Virus record (IMG/VR): IMGVR_UViG_3300003267_000132
Location: 1-64,000 of that record
Source: a virus
Length of the DNA: 64,000 nucleotides
Direction: 5' to 3' (one strand)
In this document: positions 1-56,767 of the stretch, piece after piece
Layout of the letters: each line of letters begins with the position of its first letter
How positions within the stretch are numbered: position 1 is the stretch's first letter
Position numbers and translations under genes: made by a program
The notes under the pieces: model-generated
Seen by the model: only the letters and a program-made list of their open reading frames with translations
Told to the model about the DNA's origin: nothing
The model's database searches: none

Positions 1-947
1 TAGTCGTCGTGGTTGCAGTCGAAGCGGGCGTCGTGACCGGAGTCGCCGCACACAACTTGCATCTGCACCCCGGACGCGTCGGAGTAGCACATGCGGTCGT
101 ACTCGTCGACGCAGTGGTAGTGCCCGGACGAGTGTGGCGCGGAAAGTTGGACGGCCCCGAGGGTGTGCATCAGTTCGTGGGCTTCGACGGGGCCACCCCA
201 ACACTGCGTGTCGACGCGCGCCCACGACGGCCCCGCGTTGTTGATGTTGGTCGAGGCGTTGCTGTCGTCGCTGAACACGGTGCCGATGCCGCAGTAGACC
301 TTGGCGTCGACCCAGATCAGGTACTTCCGGTCGGTGCGGCTGTATCCCATGCCGCGCAGTTCTTCGATCGTGTTGGAGAACGAGTCATCACCGCTGGCGG
401 TCAGCGTCACGTCATGCACGGTGAGGTTGCAGGCACCAGGGTCGGTGACAAAGCGCAGATGACGACTGCCCCCGGTTTCGGCTGCCGAGAGATTGAAGAC
501 GCCGTCGGCATTGGCGGCTGCGCCACGCAGGTTCGGAATCTGCGCTGCGTAGCGGGACCCGACGTCGGCGGCGTGCGCGTAGATCGCTTCGATCCGATTT
601 CCGGACGTGCCGTCGCCGTAGCAGAACACCTGCCCACCTGCTTGCGCGGCTTCTTCGGCGGTCAGCGGTGGTTGCGCGCCGAGCCGGTCGGGGCCGTGGG
701 TACAGAGGTCCTTGCCATGGACGGTCGCGATCTTGGTGCCACCGGGGCAGGGACCGGGCGGGTTGACGTGTCGGTAGAGGACCGGGCCGACGAACCAGAT
801 GACGAGGACCAGCAGTGCCAGGCAGGTCGCGAACGCCAGAACTCGCTCGATCCAGTAGCGCCTGATGTCGTGCGGTCGCCGCCCGGCGTGTGGTGGGGTG
901 TGCGGACGGAGCCGTTCGACGATCGGCCCGGAAGGCCGCCGCGTCAC
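1..947 (-). CDS. Membrane-anchored zinc metalloprotease (C-terminus cut by window edge)
   Basis: Begins at a GTG about 30 bases after the preceding gene and runs off the left edge, giving at least 315 codons. A short basic cytoplasmic stretch is followed by one hydrophobic segment (about residues 45-62), which suggests a type II membrane anchor with the catalytic part outside. Near residue 275 there is a metzincin-like zinc site AHELMHTLGAVQ followed by SAPHSSGHYHC and DEYDRMCYSD. This combination is seen in secreted actinobacterial metalloproteases. Several Cys residues suggest disulfides. It closes the lysis region, so cleavage of cell-surface or lytic proteins is a reasonable inference. 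The substrate is unknown. Confidence 0.8.
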   Translation of the reverse strand, partial: MTRRPSGPIVERLRPHTPPHAGRRPHDIRRYWIERVLAFATCLALLVLVIWFVGPVLYRHVNPPGPCPGGTKIATVHGKDLCTHGPDRLGAQPPLTAEEAAQAGGQVFCYGDGTSGNRIEAIYAHAADVGSRYAAQIPNLRGAAANADGVFNLSAAETGGSRHLRFVTDPGACNLTVHDVTLTASGDDSFSNTIEELRGMGYSRTDRKYLIWVDAKVYCGIGTVFSDDSNASTNINNAGPSWARVDTQCWGGPVEAHELMHTLGAVQLSAPHSSGHYHCVDEYDRMCYSDASGVQMQVVCGDSGHDARFDCNHDD

Positions 948-977
948 TTCATGGCGGGGCGGGAGTTCGTCGTTCAA

Positions 978-1313
978 CTACGCGCCGTCGGAAGGAATCA
1001 GCGACGGCTTCGCCGACGAATCACCCGAGTCGATGGCCTGCTTGACGTCCACGATGGTCGACGCCAGCGATGAAAACAGCATCCCGACGAGCACGACCGA
1101 TCCGGCATCCAGCGTGTGCATCGGTGCGGACAGGCCGGGCAGGGTGAGGTTGGCAGTCACGGATGCATGCGCCGACAGCGCGGCGAGCGCGATGCCCGCC
1201 CCCCAGGCCGACAACTGCGTGAGAACAGCCGACTTCTGGGTCTTCAGGTTGGTCAACTCCCGGAGGAAGTCGATCACCTGCATCACGAGGGTTGCCAGCA
1301 GAACGGCGCTCAT
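978..1313 (-). CDS. Holin-like membrane protein
   Basis: A 111-aa protein with three hydrophobic stretches: residues 2-16, about 32-46 and 70-85. There is a short polar stretch between the first two and a charged C-terminal tail. A GAAGGGAG Shine-Dalgarno precedes the ATG. Size, topology and position next to the endolysin region fit a phage holin. There is no family-specific motif I can name, so the role is inferred from context. Confidence 0.6.
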   Translation of the reverse strand: MSAVLLATLVMQVIDFLRELTNLKTQKSAVLTQLSAWGAGIALAALSAHASVTANLTLPGLSAPMHTLDAGSVVLVGMLFSSLASTIVDVKQAIDSGDSSAKPSLIPSDGA

Positions 1314-1352
1314 GGCGCGCTCCCTTCGACGGTCACGCCCGGAATGGTACGA

Positions 1353-1865
1353 CTACGGGCACAGGATCGGACGGACCACGCATGGCCGCGGCAGGGTCGT
1401 CGTCGTGGTCGAAGTGCTGGTCGTGGGTGCTGGACGGGTCGTCGTTGTAGAAGTTGGAGATCTTGTAGTCGTCGTCGAAGGGCGGGTCGTCGTGGTGGTG
1501 ACCACCGGGCGGCGACCCAGTTGGACAATCTGCGCGATCAGCGCCCCCTTCTCGGCTTCCAGTCGGGCAAGTTCAGCCCGGTCCGCGGAGCGGTCGTTGC
1601 GCAGTTCGTCGATCTTGGTTTGCAACTTCTCGACCTGGTCTTGGAGCTTGTCGTAGGCCGAGTCCTTGCGCTTCGTTTCCGAGATGGCCGCGTCGCGCTG
1701 GCGTCGCGAGTCGCGCCTGTCGGCATCCAGCGACACGACGGCAATGAATAGGGACGCGCTCAAGAGCGCAATGGCCGCGGTCAGAAGGGTGTTGCGGATC
1801 CGTCGCCACACCTGGTCGGAAGTGCGCCTGCCGTGGGGCCACAGGATGCGGTGGTCGGGGTTCAC
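1353..1865 (-). CDS. Membrane protein with coiled coil and Thr-rich tail (possible spanin-like)
   Basis: A GTG start overlaps the stop of the upstream gene (GTGA), giving 170 aa. A basic N-terminus is followed by one transmembrane helix (about 26-45), a long charged coiled coil (about 50-115), then a low-complexity tail of Thr with Pro, Ser and Arg (121-159), and a short end with two Cys. One membrane anchor plus a coiled coil beside holin genes recalls i-spanins or Rz, but the Thr-rich tail is not typical of them. Thr-rich linkers often cross actinobacterial cell walls and can be glycosylated. Function unproven. Confidence 0.6.
   Translation of the reverse strand: MNPDHRILWPHGRRTSDQVWRRIRNTLLTAAIALLSASLFIAVVSLDADRRDSRRQRDAAISETKRKDSAYDKLQDQVEKLQTKIDELRNDRSADRAELARLEAEKGALIAQIVQLGRRPVVTTTTTRPSTTTTRSPTSTTTTRPAPTTSTSTTTTTLPRPCVVRPILCP
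1389..1505 (-). repeat. Low-complexity Thr-coding repeat
   Basis: The stretch encodes TTTTT, TTTT and TTT runs separated by RPS, RSP and RPA. On the plus strand it appears as repeated gtcgtcgt and gtggtc. Slippage during replication could change its length. Confidence 0.7.
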
Positions 1866-2134
1866 TTGGCCGTCGCCGTCTTGACCGCCCACACCGCCGC
1901 GATTCCCATTCCGATCAGCGTCCCCCCGATGGTGCGGATGACCCACTGGTTGGCCTGCTCCAACCGGGTCACGCGTTCCAGGACCGCCTTGCTCTGTGTC
2001 TCCTGGACGTCGAGACGTCCGGTGATGGTCGCCTTGGCCAGTTCGATGCGCTGTTGGTTCTGGCGGTCGGAAAACTCGATCAGGTCGCGCAGGCCGTCCA
2101 GCTTGGCGTGGATCGCCTCATCGGAGGGCGGCAT
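1862..2134 (-). CDS. XhlA-like small membrane protein (holin-associated)
   Basis: A 90-aa protein with an amphipathic, coiled-coil-like N-terminal two thirds (residues 5-65) and a single C-terminal transmembrane helix (about 66-86: IGGTLIGMGIAAVWAV). This is the architecture of XhlA/DUF2746-type proteins found beside holins and endolysins. The start overlaps the end of the receiver-domain gene by 17 bases, and the stop overlaps the next start by 4. Confidence 0.6.
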   Translation of the reverse strand: MPPSDEAIHAKLDGLRDLIEFSDRQNQQRIELAKATITGRLDVQETQSKAVLERVTRLEQANQWVIRTIGGTLIGMGIAAVWAVKTATAK

Positions 2135-2453
2135 GCAACTCCTCCATCCTGAACGGTTTGAGCAGGACGGTATCAGCAGCGAGCACCGGGATCGCCGGTC
2201 CGTTGTCGCGTGCCGCGGTCATGGCGACACGCCGGATGTGCGGGTGATGTTCGGCCAGGTAATCGAGAACTGCTTGACCCGACAGGTCCGCGCCCAGCCG
2301 TAGATCGACCAGGGCGACGTCGACGCCGTCATAGAGATCCGACCCGATCAAGCGACGGAAGTCGTGGGTGACCGAGATGACGTCGTGATCAGCCAGCAGC
2401 TCCACCAGGTAGCGGCACGTCATCTCGTCGTCGTCGACCACGAGAATCTTCAT
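2118..2453 (-). CDS. Stand-alone response regulator receiver (REC) domain
   Basis: A 111-aa single receiver domain. It shows the acidic cluster D7-D9 (LVVDDDE), the predicted phospho-acceptor D50 (VALVDLRLG), the switch residue T79 (VAMTA) and the conserved K99 followed by P (LLKPF). All active-site positions for Mg2+ binding and Asp phosphorylation are present, so it looks functional. There is no output domain. The gene overlaps the upstream EAL gene by 4 bases (ATGA), so the two are probably made together. Phosphorylation by a host histidine kinase, perhaps controlling the EAL partner, is an inference. No kinase is seen in the window. Confidence 0.85.
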   Translation of the reverse strand: MKILVVDDDEMTCRYLVELLADHDVISVTHDFRRLIGSDLYDGVDVALVDLRLGADLSGQAVLDYLAEHHPHIRRVAMTAARDNGPAIPVLAADTVLLKPFRMEELHAALR

Positions 2454-3127
2454 CCCAGTACCTCGGCGGCCGGACGGGGTTCAGCGTAGAGGTACCCCTG
2501 GGCGTAGCGGATTCCCACTTCGGCGAGCCAATCCGCTTGGCGCTGCGTCTCAACCCCTTCCGCCGCGACGATGCAACGCAGCTCCAGGCCGATCCCCGCC
2601 ATCGCCCGCGTGATCGCCCGGTTGCCGGGGAAGCGGTCGAGGCCTTCGACGATGGACTGGTCGATCTTGATGATGTCCGGGTTGACCTGAATAATCGACT
2701 GCGACGACGCGTAGGCCCGACCCACATCGTCGAGGGCGACGCGCACGGCCTTGGCGTGCAGTTGCCAGATCGTGCGGTACGCGAGCAGCGGGTCGATCAG
2801 GGTCCGTTCCGACACCTCGACGACGAGTCGGGCAGCATCCGCAGATGTCAGCCGCGCCAGGTGCGACAGCACGTCGCCACGGTGCAGCGCCTCGACGGTC
2901 GCGTTCACCGCCAGATAGAGCGGTTGCGGAACTTCCGGGAGCAGGTCGACAGCCAGGTCGAAGCAGGCCATGTCGAGGTCGATGAGCGTGCCGTCGGTGG
3001 CCGCAGCCTCGAAGGCCCGCTCGGTCGGCATGTCGGGGAACCGCGCCAACGCCTCGTATCCGATGATGGTCTGCGGGTCAGCGACCGCCACGATCGGTTG
3101 AAGGTAGAGCGCAGCGGGGGCGGTCAC
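2450..3127 (-). CDS. EAL-domain cyclic di-GMP phosphodiesterase
   Basis: A 225-aa protein made of one EAL domain, which hydrolyses c-di-GMP to pGpG. All key positions are recognisable: E25 in GYEALAR, N75 in LAVNAT, E104 and E107 in VVEVSE, D133-D134 in ALDDVG, K154 in IIKID, E190 in AAEGVET and Q210 in AQGYLYAEP. Loop 6 is DDVGRAYAS instead of the usual DDFGTGYSS, a mild divergence. There is no GGDEF, sensor or membrane segment, so it should be cytoplasmic. It sits between the endolysin and a receiver-domain gene. It probably lowers host c-di-GMP late in infection (inference). A c-di-GMP-binding role without hydrolysis is possible. Confidence 0.88.
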   Translation of the reverse strand: MTAPAALYLQPIVAVADPQTIIGYEALARFPDMPTERAFEAAATDGTLIDLDMACFDLAVDLLPEVPQPLYLAVNATVEALHRGDVLSHLARLTSADAARLVVEVSERTLIDPLLAYRTIWQLHAKAVRVALDDVGRAYASSQSIIQVNPDIIKIDQSIVEGLDRFPGNRAITRAMAGIGLELRCIVAAEGVETQRQADWLAEVGIRYAQGYLYAEPRPAAEVLG

Positions 3128-3133
3128 CGCTGC

Positions 3134-3856
3134 TCAGTCGTCAGCGACAGTGACCAGCACGTAGGTCGTCGTGTTCGGTGCGCCTTCCTCGACAACCAGC
3201 GCCAGTCCGCCCTTCTCGTCCATCCACCCGACGTCCGCGATCGGTCCGCCATGCCCGTCGCGTGGAGGCCACGCCGTGCCGTGTGGCGACACCGCCAGCA
3301 CCTTGCCAATCGGAATGTCGGACGGGGTCTGCCCTTCCCCCGGCCACCAACCGCCACCGGTCGGGCCAAGGACAACAGGGATGACGTGGCGTGCCACAGG
3401 ACGACCTCCCAGGTGCAGGTGGGTGACGGTGCGGTTGGGAACGGGTTGCGGAACTGGACGGCGCGGCCATGTCAAGAACACACCCTTGTCGACCGCAGCG
3501 TGAACATGGTCATGGTGACCATCGCGGACGACCTTCGGGTAGACGAACGGCTTGCCCGCCTTGTAGCAGACGGCGGGCTTGCCATCGACCGGGCCTGCGT
3601 AGATCAGTTCGTACAGCTGCGTTTTGACCAGCGACAGCGCCTGGTAGATGTGGGCGTGTTCCAGGGTGTCGCGCCCGCCATGGCGCCCGGCGAAGTCGAC
3701 GGCCAGCCCTTGCCCACCGGTACCCTGCTGGACATGCCGCGACGTGCCCCCAGTCGAAGTCGACATCGAGTGGTTCACCGTCGACGTGACCACGTACGGG
3801 ACGCCGCTGTCGTGCACGTACGCGATCAGCGCCTGGTCCTCGCGGGAAAGCGTCAC
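3134..3856 (-). CDS. Endolysin, M15/VanY-type peptidase
   Basis: A 240-aa protein. The first 130 residues carry the LAS-type zinc peptidase signature: SRH (H41) followed by GLAVDF (D54), and later HHDHVHAAV (H117-x-H119). This suggests a D-Ala-D-Ala carboxypeptidase or L-Ala-D-Glu endopeptidase acting on peptidoglycan cross-bridges. The C-terminal 110 residues have no motif I recognise and may bind the cell wall. There is no signal peptide, so export would rely on the nearby holin candidates. Its start overlaps the stop of the small coiled-coil gene upstream (ATGA). Confidence 0.8.
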   Translation of the reverse strand: MTLSREDQALIAYVHDSGVPYVVTSTVNHSMSTSTGGTSRHVQQGTGGQGLAVDFAGRHGGRDTLEHAHIYQALSLVKTQLYELIYAGPVDGKPAVCYKAGKPFVYPKVVRDGHHDHVHAAVDKGVFLTWPRRPVPQPVPNRTVTHLHLGGRPVARHVIPVVLGPTGGGWWPGEGQTPSDIPIGKVLAVSPHGTAWPPRDGHGGPIADVGWMDEKGGLALVVEEGAPNTTTYVLVTVADD

Positions 3857-4086
3857 TTGCCCACCTTACGGGTTGCTGGCCGTGGCTTCGGGGATGAGGG
3901 TGCATCTGTCGGTGCGGCCACCGCGGGTGGTTCCCCCTGCATGACAAGGGGTGGCTCTTTGGCGTCCTTGAGTTGTCCGAGTTCGGCTCGAAGGTGCTCA
4001 ATCTCGTCGTACAGCTTGGCGTTCTCGGCTTCCAGCATCTCCAGCGTCCGCCCGAGCTTCTGGATGATGTAGAGCAAGCCGTCCAT
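3853..4086 (-). CDS. Small coiled-coil protein
   Basis: A 77-aa protein. Residues 10-42 form a charged heptad-type helix, followed by a Pro/Ala-rich basic tail. It overlaps the upstream tail gene (TGATG) and the downstream endolysin (ATGA), so it is translated with them. Function unknown. An endolysin partner or a tail-tip protein is possible. Confidence 0.6.
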   Translation of the reverse strand: MDGLLYIIQKLGRTLEMLEAENAKLYDEIEHLRAELGQLKDAKEPPLVMQGEPPAVAAPTDAPSSPKPRPATRKVGK

Positions 4087-4781
4087 CAGAACGTCTCCGT
4101 CACCGTCATGGAGGCGTGGTCGTTGTTATCCGTCACCGCCTGCTCGTCAGCGTTCTGCGTGCGCCAGCGGAGCTTGATCGTCTTGCCCGTTCCAGCAGCG
4201 ACGCCGCCGATCTCCCAGTGCTGAGAGAACTGCTTGTGCGACGACGGTTCGTTCGTAAACGCCCGCACCCACGTCTGGTCGGTCCCGTCGAGAGCGACTG
4301 TGAACTCGGTGTATCGGTTGTTGACTACGTTGACGTACCACGACAGGTGCACGTCGACAATCAGCTTCGTCGCCGCGAGCACCTTCACGAAGTTGGTCAC
4401 CTGGACGGGACCGGGATAGTCGGCCCCCGTCGTCGACGTGGTGTTGCCGCTCGTCACCGACGCGACGCCGACGGAGTCGGTGTGGGGCACCATCACAGAG
4501 AACGGGTCGAGCCGCCCGATTACGATCGGGTCGGGACCGGCGAAGTCGATGAAGACGACGTCGCCCGCCACCGGGCTGTAAGACGTCAGGAACTTGACCC
4601 CGGCGATGGTGGCGCCGCCGAGACTGATCGTGACCGAGCCGGTCTGGACCGAAGCGACTGTCGCCTGACGACGGATGCGCAGGTCCGCGCGGTCGGCGGA
4701 CAGGAGGCGGCTGGCGACGTCGATTTCGAGCGCCCGGCGGACCAGGTGGTCGGGGTGGTCGTCACCCCGGTCGAAGGTCAC
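4086..4781 (-). CDS. Minor tail / baseplate spike-type protein
   Basis: 231 aa. The N-terminal half (about residues 40-95) reads as an OB-like phage spike domain: TVASVQTGSVTISLGG, then SPVAGDVVFIDFAGPDPIVIG. The second half is beta-rich and carries aromatic residues, like a jelly-roll receptor- or carbohydrate-binding domain. It follows the hub protein gene with a 4-base overlap, which fits the tail tip. Confidence 0.65.
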   Translation of the reverse strand: MTFDRGDDHPDHLVRRALEIDVASRLLSADRADLRIRRQATVASVQTGSVTISLGGATIAGVKFLTSYSPVAGDVVFIDFAGPDPIVIGRLDPFSVMVPHTDSVGVASVTSGNTTSTTGADYPGPVQVTNFVKVLAATKLIVDVHLSWYVNVVNNRYTEFTVALDGTDQTWVRAFTNEPSSHKQFSQHWEIGGVAAGTGKTIKLRWRTQNADEQAVTDNNDHASMTVTETF

Positions 4782-5893
4782 GTGATCGACCTCTGTCCGC
4801 GCGTGGCGTACACCGCTTCCGCGGCGAGACCGATGTCGATGGTGAACTGTGACAACACGACGTTGCGCGCCAAACCCAGTCGTTCATTCTCGACGTAGAC
4901 GACGTCGGACGCGTCGTGCGCCGGGTGCGGGACGGCAACGAACGCCACGATCTCGGCGGTCCCGGCCTTCTGCAAGAGCAGATTGTTGGCCGCATCCTGT
5001 GCTTGCGCGGTGGTCGTGATCGTCGGTGACGAGAAGAAGAAAGGGCGTCGACCGAAGGTGGCCGGGAACACGGGGGACGTCGAGTCGGTGATCTCGGCGG
5101 TGGCCCGCACCGGCGTCGTCACCCCCGAGCCTTCACCCGTCACGACGACGACATTGATGGCATCGCGCGACGACTGGCGGCTGTCAGCGCGCAGGATGAT
5201 CGACTGGTTATCCGGGCGGTAGAACCAGACCGGACTGTCAAGTGTCGGGTCGGGGATCGGCTGGAGTACGACCGCGCCGTTGACGTCGAAGAAGACTTCC
5301 ATTCCGTTCGACGCGGCAAGCTGTTGGACCGACTGCCAGGGGTCGACCCCTTCGAGGAAGGTGGTCGTACCGGGCACCGTAATCGTGGTGACCGGGAAGT
5401 TGTACGTCAGACCGGCAAAGCGAGAGTTGATGATGTCGTGGATCACCGCGCCGAGTTCTAGCGACGGGGTAGCGGTCGCCACGTTGTACGGCGATTCAAA
5501 GACGGCGCGGGTGATAATCGTCGAGCGGTCGACGGCGTCGATTTCGATCAGCCCGTCCCACCGGGGATTGACGTCTTCGATACGGAAGACACCCATCGGG
5601 ACTCGTTCGACGCCGGTGTCGGACAGATTGAAGCCAACCGCCACGACCAGTTCGTTGCCATAGGGCGCTAGCAGGTCGGTCTGATCGGTGGGGATGAATG
5701 AACCGTCCGAGTCAATGACGGAACATCGCAGGCGGCGGCGGGCGGCGGCGGTGCCATCGACGGTCACCTGGCCACCAGGTGCGATTGGCAGGTCTTCGTA
5801 GATCTTGACCCCGCCGCGATAGACGTCGACGCGCGTCGATACGATGCCGCCTTCAATGAGCTGTTCGTCGAAGTCATCAGACCGCGGGTACAT
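4778..5893 (-). CDS. Tail hub protein (DUF5047-like minor tail protein)
   Basis: 371 aa, soluble and beta-rich. It resembles the DUF5047-type minor tail proteins of actinophages, which occupy the place of the gp27-like baseplate hub. Recognisable parts are RRRLRCSVIDSDGSFIPTD, VPMGVFRIEDV and a later AQDAANNLLLQ segment. It begins at a TGATG junction with the large minor tail gene and ends overlapping the spike gene. Confidence 0.7.
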   Translation of the reverse strand: MYPRSDDFDEQLIEGGIVSTRVDVYRGGVKIYEDLPIAPGGQVTVDGTAAARRRLRCSVIDSDGSFIPTDQTDLLAPYGNELVVAVGFNLSDTGVERVPMGVFRIEDVNPRWDGLIEIDAVDRSTIITRAVFESPYNVATATPSLELGAVIHDIINSRFAGLTYNFPVTTITVPGTTTFLEGVDPWQSVQQLAASNGMEVFFDVNGAVVLQPIPDPTLDSPVWFYRPDNQSIILRADSRQSSRDAINVVVVTGEGSGVTTPVRATAEITDSTSPVFPATFGRRPFFFSSPTITTTAQAQDAANNLLLQKAGTAEIVAFVAVPHPAHDASDVVYVENERLGLARNVVLSQFTIDIGLAAEAVYATRGQRSIT

Positions 5894-8800
5894 CAGGGAC
5901 GGTCGACTTCGATCAGGTCGAAGCTCACAGTGCGATGCTGGCGGTACTGCGTGTCGGCCAGGAAGTTGGTCGACAGCCGCACCGTACGGTGCTCCGGTCC
6001 GAAGCGGACGTAATACTGCTCCTGCGGGGAGGGGTCTTCGAAGTTGCGGTCGCCATAGCAGGTCTTGAACAACATGACTTCTTGCGCGGCGCGCAAGGTC
6101 TTGAAGCTCTCCCAGTCGTCGTCCTCATCGAAGTACACGGTGATGTGGAACCGCTGGCCATGCACCGTGTCGACGTTGACGACCGGGTTGCGCCGCCCGA
6201 TTGGCTGGAACTCCGACTGCGACTCGGTCGACACCGATTCGACCTGGGTGCCGGTGACACATAGACGCGACACCAGTTCCGGGTGCTCGACCGAGCGCAG
6301 GATCATGTTGCCGTCGGACTCAAGGGTGATGGGACCGGCGATCGTGTACGGCGATGCCAGGTCACCGACCTCAGTCGTTGCGTTCACCGCATCGATGCGG
6401 CTGACCTTGGCGAACATGCGCGCCCGGTACCAGAGTGCCCCGCCGCGCGGCGCTTCGTAGTCGTCGATCACCAGCCGTTCGGTGTGGTCGCCAAGGTCGA
6501 AGTTCCATTCCTCGTCCTCAACTTCATCCCACGTCACCTGGTCGTCTTGGGATCGGTCTAGCGCGAACCATTCATGCAGCTCCCCGGCGGGAACCCACAT
6601 GTCGGACACACCCTCCCAGAAGCCGAACAGATGGAACCGATGTTCCTCTCCCGCCGCTGGCGACAGGACGTTGACGACGACCCGCGCATACGCGGCATCG
6701 GATGGCGCGATCGCCACACAGCACATGAAGCTCCAGCCGCCAGCGATGGACGGCTGAAACGCCGTGCCTGTCGTCGACGCCGTAGATGATGCTGACCCGT
6801 CGGCCTTGAACCAGAAGATGTCGAAGCGCATCTGCCGGGTCGTGGTGACCGGCTTCCCCCATCCCATGAACGTGTGGAACCGGTCAGGGGTGACCGGCAG
6901 CGTCGGTGGGGTCTGCATACTCATGTCGGCTGCAGCGACTGCGGTCATGCTCCAGCACGGACCGCTGTCGAACCCCAGGTTCGCCTTTCGCTGCACCGTA
7001 GCGTTCGACTTGTTCGACCATCCGTCCTGGGTCGTCGCGGACGCCTGCGCCTCGCTGAGCAGATTCGGTCCAGCGACAAACCCGCCCGGCTGAAACCCGG
7101 TGTCCGCGCCATTGCGGGTGACCTGCACCGAGTCGATGATGTGGTTCTCATTGGCGACCGACGCCTGCGTCCCGAAGCGCAGCACCATGAATCGCGCGGT
7201 AGCGGGCACCGGCAGCGCCAGCGCGGCCGAGTTGAACGTAGCGCCGGTCCTCGCCCATGCCGTCGTGCTCTCCGTCAGCACTGTCGCCGTAGCCGACGAC
7301 CCGACCGACGCACCAGCCGCAGTCTTGAAGGTGACCGTCAGGGTGCAGGTGCGCGGGTTGCTCAGTGCGCGGAACGCGCAGCGCGCCGCCCAGTCGTCGC
7401 CCGGATTGACGGGTACGACGATCTGTGGCAATGCATCGCTGTCGAAGGTGACCCCACCGGTGCTGGTTGCCTGCACGGTGATTACGTCTTGGCCGTGCTC
7501 GGCGCGCGAGTCGGTGTTCATGGTGAGGTTGGCGACGTTGCTGATCTTGGTGAAGTGCGGGTTTCCCGAGTTATTGAGATCGAGGCCGGGACCTTCCGCG
7601 GAGATACCCTGCGGTGCCAGGTTGCCGTATCCGGTGACGATCGCGATGATCCGTTCGAAGCCCAACCCGAGCGACAAGGTCGGTGCGTTGGGGACATCAA
7701 TGGCGAGCGAGAATGCGTTGTTGTCCCAGGGTGAGTAGCGCCCGCCGCTCCCGGAGTCGCCAACCTTGACGTAGACGACGTAGCTGTTGGCGGGGATCGT
7801 GTCGCTCGTCGCCTGCTGCGCGCTGGACAACACTTCGCCGGAGTCCCACGTCGCGGTGGTCGTATCCGGGTCGAAGCTCGGCAGCGTCGTCGCGAGCAGT
7901 GTGAAGATCTTGACCCGGTACCGTTCCTGGGTGTCGACGTCCGGGTCGTAGAACGTCCACCGGACCGACACCTGACCGCTTGTGTGAAGGACCTGCCCTT
8001 CCGTTGGCGCGGTGATCCAGTTAATCGTGCCGGTCGTGATAGCAACACCGGTCGCCGTCGCACTTGCGTTGGCCGACATCGTGGGCTGCTGCACGACGTT
8101 GCCGGTGCTCATGTTGCCGGTGCCGCCGGTGCATCCCGTAAACGTCGTCGCCGTCTTGCCGGTATAGGTGACGACCTGGCGGCCTGCCGACGTGTCGATC
8201 TCGATGCGGCCCGACGCCGCGAACGTCGACGCGTCGGCCACGTTGATCGTCGCGGTAGGGAGCGCGACGCCGTTGCTGCCCGACGCAATCGTCGTCGCTT
8301 TGATCGACGCAATCGTCGTTCCCGCCGGAATGCCAGCCCCGGTGATCGATCGACCGACGTCGGTACCGGACCCCAACGCCGGACGTCGGAACAGGGTCTT
8401 CGGGCTGGTGATAATCGGGGACCCGGAAGTCGTCTGCCCGTCGTCAGTCGTGCGGGTGGAGTTCGGTGCTTCGTTCCACTCGACGATCGCCGCAATCTCA
8501 TAGATGTTCGGGATGGTCCCGCCCACTACTCCGAAGATGCGGACGCGCAGGTTGTCGATGTCGGCTTGGGTCCACGACCCGCTCGGTCCGGTTGTGTGGC
8601 TCGGACCGGTGACTGTGTGGGTGGTCCCGTCCCCAGTGACGGTACTGAAGCTGCCGATGATGCCGTCACCCGTCACGCCGTCGACGAGTCCCATCGCAAG
8701 GACCTGAGACGTCGAGCCGGAGATGCGGACTCGGACCGACACGCTTCGGATCTGTGCTCCGGTCGGAACGGTGAAGGTGCCGAGCGACACCTGGAAGTTC

Positions 8801-8958
8801 GCCGTGTCCGGACCGCCGCCGTCGCTGATGAAGGTGCTGTCGAGGTCGTCGTTGGTACACGCCGCGGCATTGGTCGGGCCGCCATTGAACGTGATGTCGA
8901 ACCGTTCGGACGTAATCTCCGCGTCGGGCCGCAGGGCCGTGGACTGATTGATCGTCAA
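5893..8958 (-). CDS. Large minor tail protein with Ig/fibronectin-like domains
   Basis: 1021 aa and strongly beta-rich, directly downstream of the tape measure gene, the usual place for distal tail proteins. The middle holds fibronectin-III-like segments (for example WITAPTEGQVLHTSGQVSV and RVKIFTLLATTL). Two carbohydrate-binding-module-like blocks follow (around residues 480-760). The C-terminal 200 residues form a compact domain with an RLVIDDYEAPRG motif typical of actinophage minor tail proteins. It likely contributes to host recognition. No enzyme motif was seen. Confidence 0.75.
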   Translation of the reverse strand: MTINQSTALRPDAEITSERFDITFNGGPTNAAACTNDDLDSTFISDGGGPDTANFQVSLGTFTVPTGAQIRSVSVRVRISGSTSQVLAMGLVDGVTGDGIIGSFSTVTGDGTTHTVTGPSHTTGPSGSWTQADIDNLRVRIFGVVGGTIPNIYEIAAIVEWNEAPNSTRTTDDGQTTSGSPIITSPKTLFRRPALGSGTDVGRSITGAGIPAGTTIASIKATTIASGSNGVALPTATINVADASTFAASGRIEIDTSAGRQVVTYTGKTATTFTGCTGGTGNMSTGNVVQQPTMSANASATATGVAITTGTINWITAPTEGQVLHTSGQVSVRWTFYDPDVDTQERYRVKIFTLLATTLPSFDPDTTTATWDSGEVLSSAQQATSDTIPANSYVVYVKVGDSGSGGRYSPWDNNAFSLAIDVPNAPTLSLGLGFERIIAIVTGYGNLAPQGISAEGPGLDLNNSGNPHFTKISNVANLTMNTDSRAEHGQDVITVQATSTGGVTFDSDALPQIVVPVNPGDDWAARCAFRALSNPRTCTLTVTFKTAAGASVGSSATATVLTESTTAWARTGATFNSAALALPVPATARFMVLRFGTQASVANENHIIDSVQVTRNGADTGFQPGGFVAGPNLLSEAQASATTQDGWSNKSNATVQRKANLGFDSGPCWSMTAVAAADMSMQTPPTLPVTPDRFHTFMGWGKPVTTTRQMRFDIFWFKADGSASSTASTTGTAFQPSIAGGWSFMCCVAIAPSDAAYARVVVNVLSPAAGEEHRFHLFGFWEGVSDMWVPAGELHEWFALDRSQDDQVTWDEVEDEEWNFDLGDHTERLVIDDYEAPRGGALWYRARMFAKVSRIDAVNATTEVGDLASPYTIAGPITLESDGNMILRSVEHPELVSRLCVTGTQVESVSTESQSEFQPIGRRNPVVNVDTVHGQRFHITVYFDEDDDWESFKTLRAAQEVMLFKTCYGDRNFEDPSPQEQYYVRFGPEHRTVRLSTNFLADTQYRQHRTVSFDLIEVDRP

Positions 8959-11231
8959 CTGGCACGCCCTGTTCCGGCCACGGCGTGGTCGATGATGCGC
9001 CGCAGCGATGCGCCAATCTCGTCGCGGGCGACGGTGCGGAACGCCTCGACGGTGGCGCGGTCAGCACTTCCCTGCACCGCGACGTTCACCTGCACAGCAC
9101 CATCCCCGATCGTTATGGTGCTGGCCGTCGAGTTGTTGACGGCCCGCCCGGACACCAATGCCTGCGTCAGCGCGGCGGGGATGACCAACTCGCCACCGTG
9201 AGCGATGACCAACTGCGGGCTGCCGACCGGACCGGCGACGATTCCTCCGCTGCCGAGGATCTGGCGCGCGACGTGGAAGATGCCGCGGGCGACACTCTTG
9301 GCGGGACCGGGAAGGATGTCGATGGCGTCGTTGATGACACCCTCGATGGCTTTCTTCACGTCACCGACGAGCGCCTTGATGCCATTGGTGATCCCGATGA
9401 TGATCGACTGCGCGAGCCGGATACCGGCCTTGGTGAAGTCGCCCACCAGGTTCTCGGCGGTCGTCAGGATGCTGCGGATGACGTTCTCGATCGTGCCCCT
9501 GATGTCATTGAAGATGTTGATGACCGTCTGCTTGATCGTATTGAACGCCCGCGACCAGTGACCGGTGAGCAGGTCGAGGAAGGTGCCAATGATGCCCAGT
9601 ACGAGATCGCGGGCGACGCGGAAGATTCCTGCGATCTGGTCCCACCCGATACGCACAAGGCCAACGATGAAGTCGAAGCCGATCGTGAAGGTCGCCCTGA
9701 TGCTTTCCCATGCCAACGTGACCAGCGGCACGACAATGTCGCTCAGAATGCGGAACGTGTTCGCCAGTTGATCGGCAAACGGTCGCAGGATCGACACCAT
9801 CAGGTCGAGAGCGCCCTGGAAGATCTGCTTGATCTCGTCCCAGTGGGTCCGCCAGAACTCGGTCAGCGCGGCGATGTTCTCCCGCAGGAACCCGACCGGA
9901 CCGGACCCACCAACGAACTCGATCACCCGTTGACCGAACCTGCCGATGGCACCGACGACATCTTCCAAGGTTCGACCGAACGCCACGAACGCGTCGCCAA
10001 CGGCATGCACGATGTCCCGGAAGGTCTGAGACTTCTGGTAGGCGATGACGATCCCCGCGGTCAGGGCGGCGACTGCGGCGATGACGATCGTGATCGGTCC
10101 GCCGATCAGCGCAATGGCACCTTCCAGTAGGGTGCCACCTTCGGCGGCGGCGGCCATTGCCCCGACAAGCTCGGAGATCACCTGGACGAAGTTGACGACC
10201 TTGATAGCCGCGAACGCCGCCGCCAAGGCTTCCAGGATGGGGACGAGATTGGTCCCGATGTGTTCGGCCAGGCCGTCAAGCGCGGGGAGCAGCGTGTCGC
10301 GCACGAACTCACCGAGAAACTTGACGGGTGGGTTCACCTTCTCAAACAGCACCGCGCCGAAGACCGCTGCCTTGGTCTGCGCGGCCCCGATCTTGTCCGT
10401 GCCTTCGCGGAACCCACCGATGAAGTCGCGTATCGGGGTAACGACACGCCCAATAGCTCGGCTTGTCGCGTCGATCGCCGCGGGCAGATGGGCGGACATG
10501 AACTCGGCCATACGGTTCAGGACCGGGAGCACCGCGTTGCCGATCTGCTCCTGAATGTTCCCGAGTTGCACCTTGAGCTTGCCAATCGGAGTGGCGACCG
10601 CTTCAGCCGACCCTCCGAACTCTGTCGTCAGTTCCTTGAGGATGATCTTCTGCGCGTCGAGGGCGTGGCCGGTCTTGACCAGCGTTTCGATCTGGTCCTT
10701 CTGTGACTGCGTGAACGACACTCCGACGCGCTGGAGAGCGGTGACGCCCTTGATCGGATCGTTGAGTGCCTTGCCCAACTGGATTGCCGACGACGACACG
10801 TCGGTCCCCAGGGCGACGCTCATGTCGGCCAGGATCGATGTCGCCTGGTTGAAGATGTCGTTGCCCTTGCCCGCTTCGTTGCGGACGTTGGTGAAGGTGA
10901 GCAGCAGGTTCTCACCCTTCTCGATGGCCTCGTCGTCGATGCCGGTCAGGTTCGACAGCGACGTCGCCAGCTTGTCGACGTCGGCGGTCGACACCTTGGC
11001 CGCGCCGCCCGTCGACTTGATCACTGCCGCCGTCTGCGCCGCGATCTTGTTCGACTCGGCCGCGGCTTCGACCGACTTCTTCACGAAGTCGAAGCCCTCG
11101 CGGACCGCGAATGCCCCGGCAAAGACGGCGGCTGCCTTCTTGGCAATGGACCCGAACCGCGACTCGGTCTCGCGTTCGAAGTCCTTCGTGTCGGGCCGAA
11201 TCCGGATACCGGCTTCGCCGATGATGTCCAC
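8955..11231 (-). CDS. Tail tape measure protein
   Basis: 758 aa. Long helical N-terminus with alternating charge, an Ala-rich hydrophobic centre (about residues 330-400, including ITIVIAAVAALTAGIVIAY), Trp-containing helical repeats (about 440-600), and a C-terminal Gly-rich GGIVAGPVG / HGGELVIPAALT segment common to phage tape measures. It determines tail length. At about 1.5 angstrom per residue it predicts a tail of roughly 110 nm. It lies directly after the frameshifted chaperone pair. Confidence 0.9.
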   Translation of the reverse strand: MDIIGEAGIRIRPDTKDFERETESRFGSIAKKAAAVFAGAFAVREGFDFVKKSVEAAAESNKIAAQTAAVIKSTGGAAKVSTADVDKLATSLSNLTGIDDEAIEKGENLLLTFTNVRNEAGKGNDIFNQATSILADMSVALGTDVSSSAIQLGKALNDPIKGVTALQRVGVSFTQSQKDQIETLVKTGHALDAQKIILKELTTEFGGSAEAVATPIGKLKVQLGNIQEQIGNAVLPVLNRMAEFMSAHLPAAIDATSRAIGRVVTPIRDFIGGFREGTDKIGAAQTKAAVFGAVLFEKVNPPVKFLGEFVRDTLLPALDGLAEHIGTNLVPILEALAAAFAAIKVVNFVQVISELVGAMAAAAEGGTLLEGAIALIGGPITIVIAAVAALTAGIVIAYQKSQTFRDIVHAVGDAFVAFGRTLEDVVGAIGRFGQRVIEFVGGSGPVGFLRENIAALTEFWRTHWDEIKQIFQGALDLMVSILRPFADQLANTFRILSDIVVPLVTLAWESIRATFTIGFDFIVGLVRIGWDQIAGIFRVARDLVLGIIGTFLDLLTGHWSRAFNTIKQTVINIFNDIRGTIENVIRSILTTAENLVGDFTKAGIRLAQSIIIGITNGIKALVGDVKKAIEGVINDAIDILPGPAKSVARGIFHVARQILGSGGIVAGPVGSPQLVIAHGGELVIPAALTQALVSGRAVNNSTASTITIGDGAVQVNVAVQGSADRATVEAFRTVARDEIGASLRRIIDHAVAGTGRAS

Positions 11232-12314: not shown

Positions 12315-12802
12315 CAGAGGCCGATCTGGATGGTGAGCAGCATCCCCGCGAACCCGCCTTCCGGTCCGACGGCAAGGCAGCGCCCGAGCGAGATGTTGGA
12401 GCAGCGCCCGAGAATCTGGTCGTTGCCGTGACCGAGCACGACGGCTTCGACCATGAGCCAGCCGTCGATCATCCGCTGGCGGGCTTCCTGGTCGAGGACG
12501 GTCGGGGTGGGTGGCGTCTTGACGTTCGGCCCGTCAGACACCGAGGCGCAGCGCAGGATCAGAGCGCCGATCTCAAGCGTCCGCACCGAGCCGCAGTTGA
12601 GTCGATTGGTGTTCTCCTGACCGGGACCACCCGAGAAGGCACCGATCATCCCGACGACGACTTCTTCGCACTCCCACACGATCTGCCCGGTGTGGACGTA
12701 CCGGCGTTCGGGGAGAGTCACGCCCTGCGCGGTGAAGTGCGACTCGATGACCGACAGAACGTCGTGGCAGACGTCGTACAGGATGGGTGGGGCGTAACTC
12801 AC
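12314..12802 (-). CDS. Neck / tail-terminator-type protein (putative)
   Basis: 162 aa from a GTG that overlaps the stop of the glycosyltransferase gene (GTGA). The frame is open further upstream but would lie inside that gene, so the coupled GTG is preferred. The N-terminal segment APPILYDVCHDVLSVIESHF is helical and the rest is beta-rich, as in minor tail or neck proteins. It ends on the A of the next gene's ATG. Position makes a head-tail connector or tail terminator likely. Confidence 0.5.
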   Translation of the reverse strand: MSYAPPILYDVCHDVLSVIESHFTAQGVTLPERRYVHTGQIVWECEEVVVGMIGAFSGGPGQENTNRLNCGSVRTLEIGALILRCASVSDGPNVKTPPTPTVLDQEARQRMIDGWLMVEAVVLGHGNDQILGRCSNISLGRCLAVGPEGGFAGMLLTIQIGL

Positions 12803-13932
12803 AGGGCACCACCGTAGGCCCCGGTCACCACGGCTTCGCGGATCGCGACCGCCGCGCGCTGCGCCGCGCGCCCGTCGCGGGTCCATGGCGGGAACACCGA
12901 GTCGACCATGCGTTGGCGACCCAGCCGGTGCTCCGGGTAGTCGGCCAGCGCCGTCGAGATAGCGGCAGCCAGGTCGGCGGGGTCTTCGCAGTGGGGCACA
13001 TCGACCGTCCAGTCCCAGAAGCGCCCGCCATGGTGGACGTCGCGTCGGTACCACGGCGCGGACAGCCAGACAATGGGCTTGCCGGTTACCGCGAACTCGA
13101 CCCCGGTGCTGCTGTTGTCGATGACGTAGCAGTCGGCCCGATCCATGACAGCTTCGAAGGACGGTTCGAACTCGATCCCGTTCATCTCCCACCAGCGTCG
13201 CAGCCGGTCACCCCATCGTGGGTGTGCGTGACCGAACAGCCGGAAGTGCTGCGCCAAGCCGGGCACGTGCCCCCGGAAGTGCTCCCATGCCGAGGTCGTC
13301 TCGTTGATGAGCCGGATATCGGCATGGAAGGACACGCAGACAAGGGGAGGGTCGAACCCTCGCGCAGAAGGTTTGGCGACGATCGACGGAGACGTCCGAC
13401 CCTCCGTGGCGGACCCGGGGAGTCGAACCCGCGGTGTCTCCGGCTTATGAGGCCAGCGTGGAACCGTTTCACCCGTCCGCCTGTCGTCGACCTTAGTCCA
13501 GCGGTCAAGGCGTGGCGACCCGATGGTGATTGCCGGTGCGTCGGGGTAGCGGTCGCGCCAGCGGCGGGCGATCTGCTCGTTGGGGCACAGAAACAGGATG
13601 CAGTCTTCGTGTTCGACCGACCCTGCGTAGGACGGATGGGCGCAGCCCACCGGGTCGCCGTCGTAGGTCTGGCCTGCGCCGTGCTCGACGTAGATGAACG
13701 GGCGGCGGCACGCTCGCGAGTCCTGGAAACTGGCGACGACGATTGGCTGACCGTTGACGGTGGGGTGGCCATGGCGCACGTGTTCGGGGTCGACGCCGCG
13801 ACTGGTCGCGTAGAGCATCAGGTCCTGCCGCACCCACCACGTTCCGCGTTCTTCGGGGTCGAGCGCGAACCAGATGTCGAACAAGTGGTCGGCGTACTGC
13901 GACTCGCTGGCCGAGAAGTCAAGCGGCAGCAC
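12799..13932 (-). CDS. GT-B glycosyltransferase / CDP-glycerol glycerophosphotransferase-like
   Basis: 377 aa from a GTG that overlaps the end of the large glycosyltransferase gene. Motifs match the glycerophosphotransferase / GT-B fold: YVEHGAGQTYDG (about 82-93), ITIGSPRLDRW (136-146), VCVSFHAD (about 199) and DNSSTGVEFAVTGKPIVWL (about 272-290), which binds the nucleotide-activated donor. Between the two Rossmann halves there is an unusually long linker (about 145-195). Residues 151-175 of it coincide with a tRNA-like sequence. It belongs to the glycan island and probably transfers a sugar or polyol phosphate to a glycan or virion protein (inference). Confidence 0.65.
   Translation of the reverse strand: MLPLDFSASESQYADHLFDIWFALDPEERGTWWVRQDLMLYATSRGVDPEHVRHGHPTVNGQPIVVASFQDSRACRRPFIYVEHGAGQTYDGDPVGCAHPSYAGSVEHEDCILFLCPNEQIARRWRDRYPDAPAITIGSPRLDRWTKVDDRRTGETVPRWPHKPETPRVRLPGSATEGRTSPSIVAKPSARGFDPPLVCVSFHADIRLINETTSAWEHFRGHVPGLAQHFRLFGHAHPRWGDRLRRWWEMNGIEFEPSFEAVMDRADCYVIDNSSTGVEFAVTGKPIVWLSAPWYRRDVHHGGRFWDWTVDVPHCEDPADLAAAISTALADYPEHRLGRQRMVDSVFPPWTRDGRAAQRAAVAIREAVVTGAYGGAL
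13407..13481 (-). tRNA. tRNA-Met-like sequence (anticodon CAT), imperfect T arm
   Basis: Reading the minus strand, a 7-bp acceptor stem is perfect (GGCGGAC with GTCCGCC). The D stem pairs 3 of 4 (GTGA/CCAC) with GG in the loop. The anticodon stem CTGGC/GCCGG pairs fully around CTCATAA (anticodon CAT). A TTCGA T-loop is present. The T stem pairs only about 4 bases and needs a bulge or an 8-base loop, so it may be degenerate. It lies wholly inside the reading frame of a glycosyltransferase gene, in a variable linker. It could be a decayed tRNA, a real overlapping tRNA or chance. Confidence 0.4.
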
Positions 13933-16705
13933 GGGTGGCGAGCCGCGCGAAGAGTTCTTCGTAGTGCGGGATGAGCACGTCCCAGGAGATGCCCGCCGCA
14001 ATCCTGTCGGCCTCGGCTGACAGCGATGCGACTTCGGCTGGTCGCGCCGCGAGTTCGTCCATCCGGCGCGCCAGGTCGCGCGGGGACACGTCATGCAGCG
14101 GGATCGGACCGACGAGTGAGTTGAACTCGCGGCGCGACTGGCAAGGCAGGCGCATCCCCGGCGGGAGAATCTGGCGTTGCGGCTCGGCGTCGGGCATGAG
14201 CACGACCAACCCCGACGACAGCGCCTCGTTCATGGGGAGGCTCTGCCCGCCATAGCGGCGGGGAAGCACCAGGACGTCGGTGTCGTCGTAGAGCTGCCAG
14301 TAGTCGGGCATGTCGCCAATGTGGACCTCCAGGTCGATGTGCGCTCCGTAGCGCATCGGTGCCCGGCACGGCTGCATGGATCGGACGACGACGTGCATCG
14401 GTTGGGAGACGAAGCCAAGTGCTTCCCACAGCACTCTGGTCCCGGCGCGGTCATGCGCGGCGGGGTGCCCGATGACGTGCAGGAAGGTCTTCGCCTCGGT
14501 CCGCTGCCGATAGGGCAGCCGCTGCCGGTCGACGCCATGCGGAAGCAGGACCGGGTCGGGCAGTCGCTCCATGTTCCACGTCGTCGGCACCGCCAGCACA
14601 TCGGGGATCGGTGCCCAGTCCGGGGCGAGGATGTGATGGGTGAACTCGTAGTTCGCCACAAGAATCGTGTGAATTTTCATATCGGCGCACAGCCGAGTGA
14701 ACCAGGGCAGGTAGAACGTCTCGCACCCGAGCACCACGTCGAGATCCGCGAGCCAGTTGCGGACGTCGACCTCAAAGATGCGGTCATGGCGCGCCACCGC
14801 CAGCGTGGCCGGGTTGTACTCCCGCCAGCTACAAGGGTACGGGGACAGATCCCCCATGTCGATCCCGAACACCTTGGCCGGTTGCAGGTGGCGCGCTAAC
14901 TCCGACGTCTGCACCGCCAGCCCGCGTCGGTCGGCGCGTGCACCGAAGAGACCGACCCGGATGGCGCGCGATATTTCGCGCGGCGCGACGTAGGCGGCGG
15001 GCACGTCGCGGTGGGGATTGGGGGCACCGAACGGGACCATCGGCGTGTCGTAGGCCCACCGCATCTCGTACTTGGACTCACCCTCGCGCCCGTCGAGATG
15101 CGTCGACCGCTTCATGTCGCCCGACGGCGCGTAGATCCAGGTGCGGAACCGCTCCCAGCCTTCGTAGCCGTACTCCTGCCAGTGAGTGACGAGCACCCCG
15201 TACATGGAGTCCTCGATCATCGTCCGCGCTTCTCGCCCGAAGAACCGGGTGAGCATGTCGCGGTAGAAGTCGGTTCGCGCCAGGTGTGGTCGCTGGCTCC
15301 ACTGCACGGTGCGCAGTAACGGCGCTCCCGCGACGTCATGCGGCTCGGCGTCGAGAACGAGATGGCGATGCGGCTCCAGGATCGACGCTTCGTGATGGAG
15401 CCGGATCAGGTTGCAGGTGCCTTCCTGTAACCCGTCGAGCAGCGATTGCCACGGCAACTGCTCACCGAACAGCGGCGTGTCGTGTTCGACGAACAGGATG
15501 GCCGGGGTGCGCACCAGATCGAGCACCCGCCGGGTCATCTCGGCCTGATGCAGATGCTCGTCGTGCAGGACCGGCAGGACGTTGCGCCAGCGGTTGTTGG
15601 CCAGCCAGAGCAACCGCCGCGTGTACTCCGCGTAGTCGGCCCGCCGCCCTTCCTGTTCGGCGCGAACCCCGTCGACCATGACCAGGATCTCGGCGCGCGG
15701 CAGGCGTTCCCGCACCGACGCGACGGTCTGTTCAATGACCGAGGTGTCCGGGTGCGACGGAATCGGGGACGTCGGGATCAGAACGGTGATCCGGTCGTCG
15801 ACAGTCGGTTCGCTGTCGTCGGTTTGTCGGACGCTCACCAGGTCGTCGCGCAGCGCGTATGCCAGTTCCCGCTTGTGGTGCTGCCACCACGCGAAGATGC
15901 GGTTGGCGTTGGCGGGCCACTCGCGGACGAGTTCGTCGATGGCCTGGTCGATGTCGGTCCATGACCGCAGGACAGGCAACGGATGCTCGTCACCGAACAA
16001 GGTCTGCCAGTACTCGGGCGACTCGACGATGGGGATGCACCCGGCTTCCAGAGCTTCGAAGAGCCGGAAGGTGTCCGGGGTCTGCGGCCCCGCGGGACAG
16101 GGAGCGACCTTCGCCGCGACCATGCCCGCCGCGTACTCCGCGATGTCGACCCCTTCCATGAACCCCGCGGTTTCGATGACGCGCCCGTCGCCACGCCTAC
16201 GCCGTGAGAGCGCACCGGCAAGTTCCTGGCGGGACCGATGCGAGATCTGACCCGCGAAGAACCAGTTGAGCGGCTTGTCCAGGGGGTCCGCTGGCAGATG
16301 CTCGCGGTAGGACCACGCCCAACCGTCCCCCAGGGGCCTGTCTGTGCCCGTCACGCTGCCCGCGACCGGCGTCTGCACCCAGCGACGCATCTGCACGTTC
16401 GCCAGCTTGTGGCGGGGAAATACGCCCTCCTCGTCACCGGTCAGGATCACCAGCGCCCACCCCAACCGGTAGAGCCATGTCGCGATTCGGTCGGCGTCTT
16501 GGACATGCCAGCGCGCCGGGATGACGACGACCGCACCGGGAGCGTCCGCGGGGAGCGCGTCAAAGCCACCTTCGTGGTGGCGGAAGGTCGGGTGTCCCGG
16601 CGCGCGCCAGAGGGTGCCCGCCATGAGTTCTTCCAGCAGACACTGATCGGCATACCCGCGGGCACGGATGTCGTCGTGCAGCGAGAGCCAGAGGACGTCG
16701 ATCAT
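13919..16705 (-). CDS. Three-domain glycosyltransferase
   Basis: 928 aa from an ATG overlapping the methyltransferase stop (ATGA). The N-terminal third (about 1-310) resembles exostosin/GT47-like enzymes, with TFRLFEALEAGCIPIVESPEYW as the donor-site signature. The middle (about 315-600) is GT2-like, with ITVLIPTSPIPSHPDT, RAEILVMVDG and LFVEHDTPLF. The C-terminal third (about 605-928) is a GT-B/GT4 domain with VGLFGARADRRG, LLPHGVDRQRLP, DVLVLPRRYGGQSLPMNEA and a SWDVLIPHYEELF end. Such a chain suggests stepwise synthesis of a short glycan by one polypeptide, placed in the structural region beside methyltransferases. Confidence 0.8.
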   Translation of the reverse strand: MIDVLWLSLHDDIRARGYADQCLLEELMAGTLWRAPGHPTFRHHEGGFDALPADAPGAVVVIPARWHVQDADRIATWLYRLGWALVILTGDEEGVFPRHKLANVQMRRWVQTPVAGSVTGTDRPLGDGWAWSYREHLPADPLDKPLNWFFAGQISHRSRQELAGALSRRRRGDGRVIETAGFMEGVDIAEYAAGMVAAKVAPCPAGPQTPDTFRLFEALEAGCIPIVESPEYWQTLFGDEHPLPVLRSWTDIDQAIDELVREWPANANRIFAWWQHHKRELAYALRDDLVSVRQTDDSEPTVDDRITVLIPTSPIPSHPDTSVIEQTVASVRERLPRAEILVMVDGVRAEQEGRRADYAEYTRRLLWLANNRWRNVLPVLHDEHLHQAEMTRRVLDLVRTPAILFVEHDTPLFGEQLPWQSLLDGLQEGTCNLIRLHHEASILEPHRHLVLDAEPHDVAGAPLLRTVQWSQRPHLARTDFYRDMLTRFFGREARTMIEDSMYGVLVTHWQEYGYEGWERFRTWIYAPSGDMKRSTHLDGREGESKYEMRWAYDTPMVPFGAPNPHRDVPAAYVAPREISRAIRVGLFGARADRRGLAVQTSELARHLQPAKVFGIDMGDLSPYPCSWREYNPATLAVARHDRIFEVDVRNWLADLDVVLGCETFYLPWFTRLCADMKIHTILVANYEFTHHILAPDWAPIPDVLAVPTTWNMERLPDPVLLPHGVDRQRLPYRQRTEAKTFLHVIGHPAAHDRAGTRVLWEALGFVSQPMHVVVRSMQPCRAPMRYGAHIDLEVHIGDMPDYWQLYDDTDVLVLPRRYGGQSLPMNEALSSGLVVLMPDAEPQRQILPPGMRLPCQSRREFNSLVGPIPLHDVSPRDLARRMDELAARPAEVASLSAEADRIAAGISWDVLIPHYEELFARLATRAAA

Positions 16706-17328
16706 GGTCGGACCCTTCCGACGGTCCAGAGCCAGTCGGGGAAGATCTTGCCGCGCTCCTGGGTCACGTCGACCAGTCCCGCCAGGCGGAACCACTCGGC
16801 CACGACCGCGGGGGGTACATGCCCTTCATCTTCGAACTCCCGGTCGTAGACCGTCTGGATGACCAACGAGCCGCCTGGCCGCAGGTAGTGGGCGACGTTG
16901 GCGATGATGGCGAGCGCGGTCGGGCGCAGGACGTGCTGGAGGACAGCCACCGAGTACGCGGCTTCCAGGGCGAAGACCGGGAGCGGTCCTTGCGCGGGGC
17001 TGCACACGAAGTGGACTCGGTCGGTCAGTCGCCGCCGGTACGACTCCTGATGGGCGTACTCCAACAGCCGCACCGAGAAGTCGATGCCATAGACCTCGGC
17101 ACCGGGGAACGCTTCCGCGATGGGAAGGGTCAGCCTGCCGATGCCGCAGCCGACTTCCATGACGGACCGGACATCGAAGGGCAGCAACTGGCGCAGCAGG
17201 TCGACGCACTTGGTCGTCGTGGCGTCGTAGTCGTCGGGGTCGACCGACCAGACCGCGAACCGCGCTTCCGCCAGCGAGTCGGCCTGCCGGTCCCAATATG
17301 CCGGGGATGACTCCTGCTGCAAGCTCAC
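16702..17328 (-). CDS. Class I SAM-dependent methyltransferase
   Basis: 208 aa from a GTG that overlaps the FkbM gene stop (GTGA). The long in-frame extension upstream lies inside that gene and was discarded. Motif I VMEVGCGIGRLTLPIAEAF (about 50-68), motif II acidic loop AEVYGIDFS, and a later LRPGGSLVIQTV give a typical small-molecule methyltransferase fold. Located between two glycan genes, it probably methylates a sugar or nucleotide sugar. The acceptor is unknown. Confidence 0.8.
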   Translation of the reverse strand: MSLQQESSPAYWDRQADSLAEARFAVWSVDPDDYDATTTKCVDLLRQLLPFDVRSVMEVGCGIGRLTLPIAEAFPGAEVYGIDFSVRLLEYAHQESYRRRLTDRVHFVCSPAQGPLPVFALEAAYSVAVLQHVLRPTALAIIANVAHYLRPGGSLVIQTVYDREFEDEGHVPPAVVAEWFRLAGLVDVTQERGKIFPDWLWTVGRVRP

Positions 17329-33807: not shown

Positions 33808-33828
33808 CGAGCATCAGACCCCCGTAGA

Positions 33829-56038: not shown

Positions 56039-56040
56039 GG

Positions 56041-56054: not shown

Positions 56055-56079
56055 ACGCTGGCGGACCGGGCGGCGCGGA

Positions 56080-56751: not shown

Positions 56752-56767
56752 GGCCCCGAAGATACCG

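Follow-up and report, generated by a model that had tools for sequence, protein, structure and literature searches.

A predicted c-di-GMP phosphodiesterase and a lone receiver protein encoded in the lysis region of a phage with a likely actinobacterial host

Introduction

Can a phage tie the c-di-GMP level and the kinase signalling of its host to its own late functions? The question was raised by a gene for an EAL-domain protein and a gene for a receiver (REC) protein, which lie next to each other in the lysis region of the phage studied here. REC regulates EAL in cis in RocR, PvrR and the actinobacterial REC-EAL fusions, and in EAL enzymes regulation is relayed through loop 6. The usual view is that the timing of phage lysis is governed by a clock in the holin itself. 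Searches of the open-licence literature found no phage lysis cassette described as carrying an EAL or REC gene, which is weak evidence that such genes at this site are novel. In this study, the two proteins, their neighbours and their relatives were analysed computationally in a DNA stretch of 64,000 nt (the window).

Results

The phage and its late operon

The window was taken from IMG/VR virus record G000, which is 66,303 bp long with 65.8% G+C. Nearly all genes of the phage are carried on the minus strand, and terminase, portal, major head protein, tape measure and tail proteins were recognised by PHROG profiles. Since the relatives of the major head protein are phages of Mycobacterium, Gordonia, Microbacterium and other actinobacteria, the host is likely to be actinobacterial. 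Record G001 represents the same phage (99.96-100% identity across window positions 20677-56700) and stops short of the EAL-REC locus, which is known from a single contig. Chimeric assembly was judged unlikely, with phage genes flanking both sides, the gene at 978-1313 common to phage G010 and the overlapping operon unbroken.

Neighbouring genes abut or share 1 to 17 bp all the way from the tape measure gene (8955-11231) to the XhlA-like gene, and the sole gap consists of the 6 bp between the stop of the upstream gene and the GTG start of the EAL gene (Table 1). A scan of window positions 1-6000 revealed no promoter-like sites above chance within the operon. The codon usage of both genes falls inside the phage's own range (38th percentile for EAL and 12th percentile for REC). 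Neither a histidine-kinase ATPase domain (HATPase_c) nor a GGDEF domain was found in the phage, so the signal input or kinase partner and the c-di-GMP substrate must be supplied by the host. There were no Rfam matches or tRNAs in the window, and PADLOC made no call for the EAL or REC protein.

Other features were observed elsewhere in the window. Homologues of FolE, QueC (twice), QueE and QueD at 54634-63648 make up a 7-deazaguanine (preQ0) pathway whose probable role is in modifying DNA. A virion-region gene is tandemly duplicated at 33136-34473 (-), with about 75% protein identity between the copies and a single match region in related records, and a cluster of glycosyltransferase-like and methyltransferase genes is inserted among the tail and structural genes at 12799-19709 (-). 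An ORF of 101 aa with an NlpC/P60 domain (E=5e-29) lies at 43777-44082 (+), on the strand opposite nearly all genes, and is possibly a second cell-wall hydrolase or a virion lysin fragment.

Table 1. Features of the lysis region and late operon of the window, and loci in other records with related domains
Feature	Position	Strand	Basis or context
Small membrane protein, 36% conserved in related phage record G010 (lysis cassette)	978..1313	-	Sequence comparison
Probable membrane-anchored coiled-coil protein, Thr-rich C-terminus, same operon downstream	1353..1946	-	ORF, hydropathy
XhlA/holin-like protein, 90 aa, coiled coil and C-terminal hydrophobic segment	1862..2134	-	Sub-cutoff PF10779, PHROG 1193, hydropathy
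Stand-alone receiver (REC), 111 aa, ATG start	2118..2453	-	PF00072, model, prophage relative
ATGA, overlap of EAL stop and REC start, translational coupling signature	2450..2453	-	Sequence
EAL-domain protein, predicted c-di-GMP phosphodiesterase, 225 aa	2450..3127	-	PF00563, catalytic residues, AlphaFold2 model
Candidate endolysin, 240 aa, M15-peptidase-like His/Asp motifs	3134..3856	-	Position and motifs only
Late operon upstream of the lysis genes: tape measure, tail proteins, small genes	3853..11231	-	Mostly 1- to 4-bp overlaps; ORFs, PHROG
Degenerate EAL and EAL-PAS genes	L180:3464-5725, L181:3306-5565, L182:4840-7101		Beside tail-fibre genes
REC locus of prophage G344:C39	L262:7749-9467		REC and coiled-coil genes overlap by 4 bp

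The EAL protein keeps a complete active site

The first-pass annotation had described an EAL protein with every catalytic position present, and this was confirmed by profile search and residue check. The match to PF00563 (E=3.4e-40, 138.3 bits against a curated cutoff of 31.3) spans the protein almost end to end, and 11/11 catalytic, metal and substrate positions are present (E25, N75, E104, E107, D133, D134, K154, D156, E190, E193 and Q210), all of them invariant in alignments with bacterial EALs. By the field criterion that a predicted-active EAL conserves all signature residues and keeps the EGVE glutamate (PMC12900916), the protein, which keeps this glutamate, is predicted to be active. 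The AlphaFold2 model, with 22 sequences in the alignment, gave an EAL TIM-like barrel with a mean pLDDT of 93.7. Its best PDB matches were c-di-GMP- or metal-bound EAL domains (TM 0.82-0.88), and comparison with 5m1t and 3n3t (c-di-GMP-bound) and 4lyk (Mg-bound) gave TM values of 0.84-0.88.

The only clear departures from bacterial EALs are in loop 6 and at the short N-terminal edge of the domain, where Pfam positions 1-13 are missing; the reading frame has 227 open codons in total and no earlier start is usable. Loop 6 reads DDVGRAYASS as against the DFG[TA]GYSS-like loop of class I enzymes, with the substitutions R137, A138 (in place of the nearly invariant glycine G138) and S142, while the loop-stabilising E107 is kept. 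The protein resembles stand-alone EAL phosphodiesterases (RimA-like and similar minimal proteins) in its single EAL domain and complete active site, and differs from them in its phage origin, the shortened N-terminus, the atypical loop 6 and NCBIfam equivalog matches far below their cutoffs (39.6 bits against a cutoff of 580 for the PvrR model). The best bacterial matches in 396 actinobacterial genomes showed 35-38% identity and were mainly REC-EAL fusions, together with GAF-EAL-like and other EAL proteins. A single-protein scan of IMG/VR detected no close viral relatives.

The REC protein is a receiver with atypical output features

The first-pass claims of a lone REC with its phosphorylation site and of a 4-base overlap with the EAL gene were likewise borne out. 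The REC matched PF00072 (E=2.6e-12, 47.3 bits against a cutoff of 30.2) and has a complete site with the acidic pair D7/D8, the phospho-acceptor D50, T79 and K99. ATGA was found at the junction of the two genes, which are separate ORFs and do not encode one polypeptide. The REC model (pLDDT 90.5) has a clear overall REC fold with a Z of 16.4 to 3nns (DrrB). Helix alpha4 was not predicted, in a block with a pLDDT of 58 and a shallow alignment, and the beta5 aromatic (the Y/F switch residue at the K-3 position) is replaced by V96; the helix and the aromatic are traits of canonical output-switching receivers and are not needed for PF00072 membership.

REC domains without alpha4 have been described in REC-only phosphorelay proteins (PMC9981736) and in CckA (PMC5964349). 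The phage REC shares with Sma0114, SdrG, MrrA and the CckA Rec the phosphorylation site, the missing beta4-beta5 helix (predicted here) and the lack of a beta5 aromatic (PMC9981736, PMC5964349). In contrast to Sma0114, SdrG and MrrA, it is encoded by a phage and has no FATGUY motif, and no kinase or general stress locus lies nearby. Assignment as a FATGUY-type single-domain response regulator was rejected, as the protein reads VAMTAARD at beta4 and the following loop and has the missing alpha4 alone in common with that type. Jumbo phage cREC domains are also phage-encoded and receiver-like, but those domains have diverged and are linked to NAD/cyclic-nucleotide conflict systems, whereas the window REC keeps the classical phosphorylation residues and lies in a lysis cassette (PMC7824862). 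REC relatives were absent from INPHARED and from an IMG/VR scan, and PLSDB gave a single weak match.

Neighbouring lysis genes

The two genes had been placed between endolysin and holin-like genes. Their position stood, and the identities of the neighbours are softer, the endolysin being assigned by position and motifs and the holin-like match lying below the Pfam cutoff. The candidate endolysin had no Pfam, PHROG or NCBIfam family match and no relatives in an IMG/VR scan. The start of the XhlA-like gene overlaps the REC end by 17 bp; its product scored 25.5 bits against the PF10779 cutoff of 34.7, being similar in architecture only, and matched PHROG 1193 'hemolysin' (E=3.6e-6). After the lysis genes, a secreted-looking protein with an HExxHxxG zinc-protease motif is encoded at 3-977 (-), where G010 has a DUF1996 protein.

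The pair in related phages and other virus records

The same pair was looked for in related phages and was absent from the 26 terminase-related records (0/26 with an EAL or REC domain), most of which are fragments possibly not covering the locus. In these records no tail or tape-measure protein could be recognised, so most of the records are uninformative on the lysis region and only G010 informs; an IMG/VR scan with the tail protein found no relatives. The lysis cassette of G010 (terminase identity 46%) comprises a VanY-type peptidase, small genes, a coiled-coil/TM gene and then the homologue of window 978-1313, with neither EAL nor REC, and for this reason the EAL and REC genes are accessory. 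Six of the 42 virus records with an EAL also hold a REC, and no adjacent stand-alone EAL-REC pair was seen among the 42. The absence of the pair in related phages weakens the claim of pairing; the view that phages carry signalling domains in late regions is strengthened.

When IMG/VR was scanned with the EAL profile, 48 loci were obtained; most encode multidomain proteins, often close to a contig end, and are probably host DNA. Records L180-L182 stand apart: each holds the same two genes next to tail-fibre genes, one for a degenerate EAL of 246 aa and one for an EAL-PAS protein of 393 aa in which every catalytic residue is present, and the three prophages differ in their tail modules. L180-L182 hold independent EAL cargo, so phages carry catalytically complete EALs in more than one case and at differing cargo sites. 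Like the window EAL, theirs is a phage-borne, catalytically complete cargo protein; unlike it, theirs belongs to a different EAL subfamily with PAS, sits at a different genomic site and is accompanied by no REC. INPHARED EAL matches were not counted as phage EALs, as those inspected were multidomain or lay in contamination-like records or unverified gut scaffolds. CAKLQH020000001 (L299) and its sister contigs, recorded as 'Acinetobacter phage MD-2021a', carry bacterial chromosomal genes (mutS, lrp and lipid A genes), so the EAL matches there are not phage genes.

A second REC in a prophage lysis cassette

The best REC relative in the 396 actinobacterial genomes (41% identity, E=9e-16, 59.7 bits; next match 34.7 bits) was found in G344:C39, and is also a stand-alone protein of 111 aa. 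The gene order there is prophage-like, with a tail collar fibre (PF07484), an amidase endolysin (PF01510, PHROG 880), the REC and then a coiled-coil gene whose product bears a C-terminal hydrophobic segment, followed by an HNH-like gene and bacterial transporter-like genes (both by reading translations). No EAL was found in the stretches of contig C39 examined (about 49 of 53 kb). Besides the REC, one notable match, short at 79 residues, joins the two phages in an 18-kb C39 stretch. The phosphorylation residues are kept between the two RECs, which are only 41% identical, and the two form a supported clade (99/94) in the tree. No third close member emerged from an additional search, which covered 395 genomes of the same class. 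Origin of the phage REC as the split-off REC of an actinobacterial REC-EAL fusion was rejected; it is not of the NarL-like type of those fusions in alignments, and the tree disagrees. Since its closest relative is a stand-alone REC at the equivalent prophage spot without EAL, the REC appears to be a recurrent component of lysis cassettes and not an obligate EAL regulator, the link between REC and lysis resting on two loci.

Discussion

We read the EAL and REC genes, with moderate confidence, as late-expressed host-signalling cargo, in which the REC would function with the lysis or envelope genes and the EAL protein would independently lower c-di-GMP. The genes are co-directional, translationally overlapping and placed between the candidate endolysin and the XhlA-like gene. 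Because both sit in the late operon, it is reasonable to infer that they are expressed late and have access to host c-di-GMP and kinases. As its fold and its intact active site suggest, the EAL protein would hydrolyse host c-di-GMP to pGpG late in infection, and the loss of c-di-GMP would reduce signalling for matrix, aggregation or development, by which burst and progeny spread are otherwise impeded. The REC would be a single-domain phosphoryl acceptor that is phosphorylated by host kinases, and it is probably a phosphoryl sink or docking adaptor instead of a classical dimerising switch, because it has no predicted alpha4 and no Y/F switch residue. Its output is more likely to be lysis- or envelope-related than to be EAL regulation, because an unrelated, EAL-less prophage has the same kind of REC immediately ahead of a coiled-coil/TM gene.

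The first-pass annotation had proposed that the phage ties host c-di-GMP and kinase signalling to late functions through a coupled unit. Of this proposal, the protein identities, the ATGA overlap and the late operon were upheld; the EAL-REC functional unit was not, with the pair not conserved and the nearest REC relative without an EAL.

The main rival is a split REC-EAL response regulator, in which the REC, phosphorylated by host kinases, acts in trans by binding the EAL protein and turning the phosphodiesterase on or off. The phage proteins share an EAL catalytic and a receiver domain with REC-EAL response regulators (RocR, PvrR and the actinobacterial fusions), and such regulation would suit the ATGA overlap, the many fusions among the nearest bacterial relatives of the EAL (35-38% identity) and the alteration of loop 6, which relays regulation. 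However, the phage has two separate proteins, EAL first, in a lysis operon, and its REC is of a different type, without predicted alpha4 and, by alignments and tree, not NarL-like as in the fusions. The nearest REC relative lies in a lysis cassette without EAL on the covered contig stretches, and related records do not conserve the pair, so that we consider a split regulator possible but unlikely.

The loop 6 substitutions R137, A138 and S142 relative to bacterial EALs could also point to a catalytically weak EAL which acts as a c-di-GMP receptor or scaffold and senses the messenger rather than changing it; this is improbable, since receptor-type EALs usually lose some catalytic or metal positions and every one is kept here, the EGVE glutamate included. 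A role in counter-defence, with the EAL degrading a cyclic dinucleotide that serves as an alarm signal (in c-di-GMP type CBASS or a similar system) and not the host lifestyle c-di-GMP pool, draws on the fact that EAL enzymes cleave a cyclic dinucleotide and on the known ability of phages to deplete or sequester cyclic-nucleotide alarm signals (PMC12657218, PMC12043709). It is highly improbable, as the late lysis operon position is a poor fit for an anti-CBASS gene and the REC is left unexplained. That the two are passenger host genes, picked up by chance and without a selected role, would agree with the absence of the pair from related records and is nonetheless hardly credible given that the active sites are intact although the proteins have diverged deeply from all bacterial relatives, that codon usage is phage-like and the overlaps are tight, and that the REC recurs in the equivalent place of another phage.

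Beside the reading of late host-signalling cargo, we advance a bolder proposal as speculation that will rather doubtfully hold. The REC would belong to an undescribed family of phage lysis-cassette receivers, which lets host histidine kinases or phosphoryl drain tune lysis timing via the adjacent XhlA-like protein, and in the phage studied here, together with a c-di-GMP phosphodiesterase, lysis and second-messenger state would be set together.

If true, the presence of a phosphorylatable receiver in the lysis cassettes of two unrelated actinobacterial phages would mean that host two-component signalling could feed the lysis-timing decision, and a phage-made c-di-GMP phosphodiesterase in the lysis operon would be a direct late handle on host biofilm, aggregation or development.
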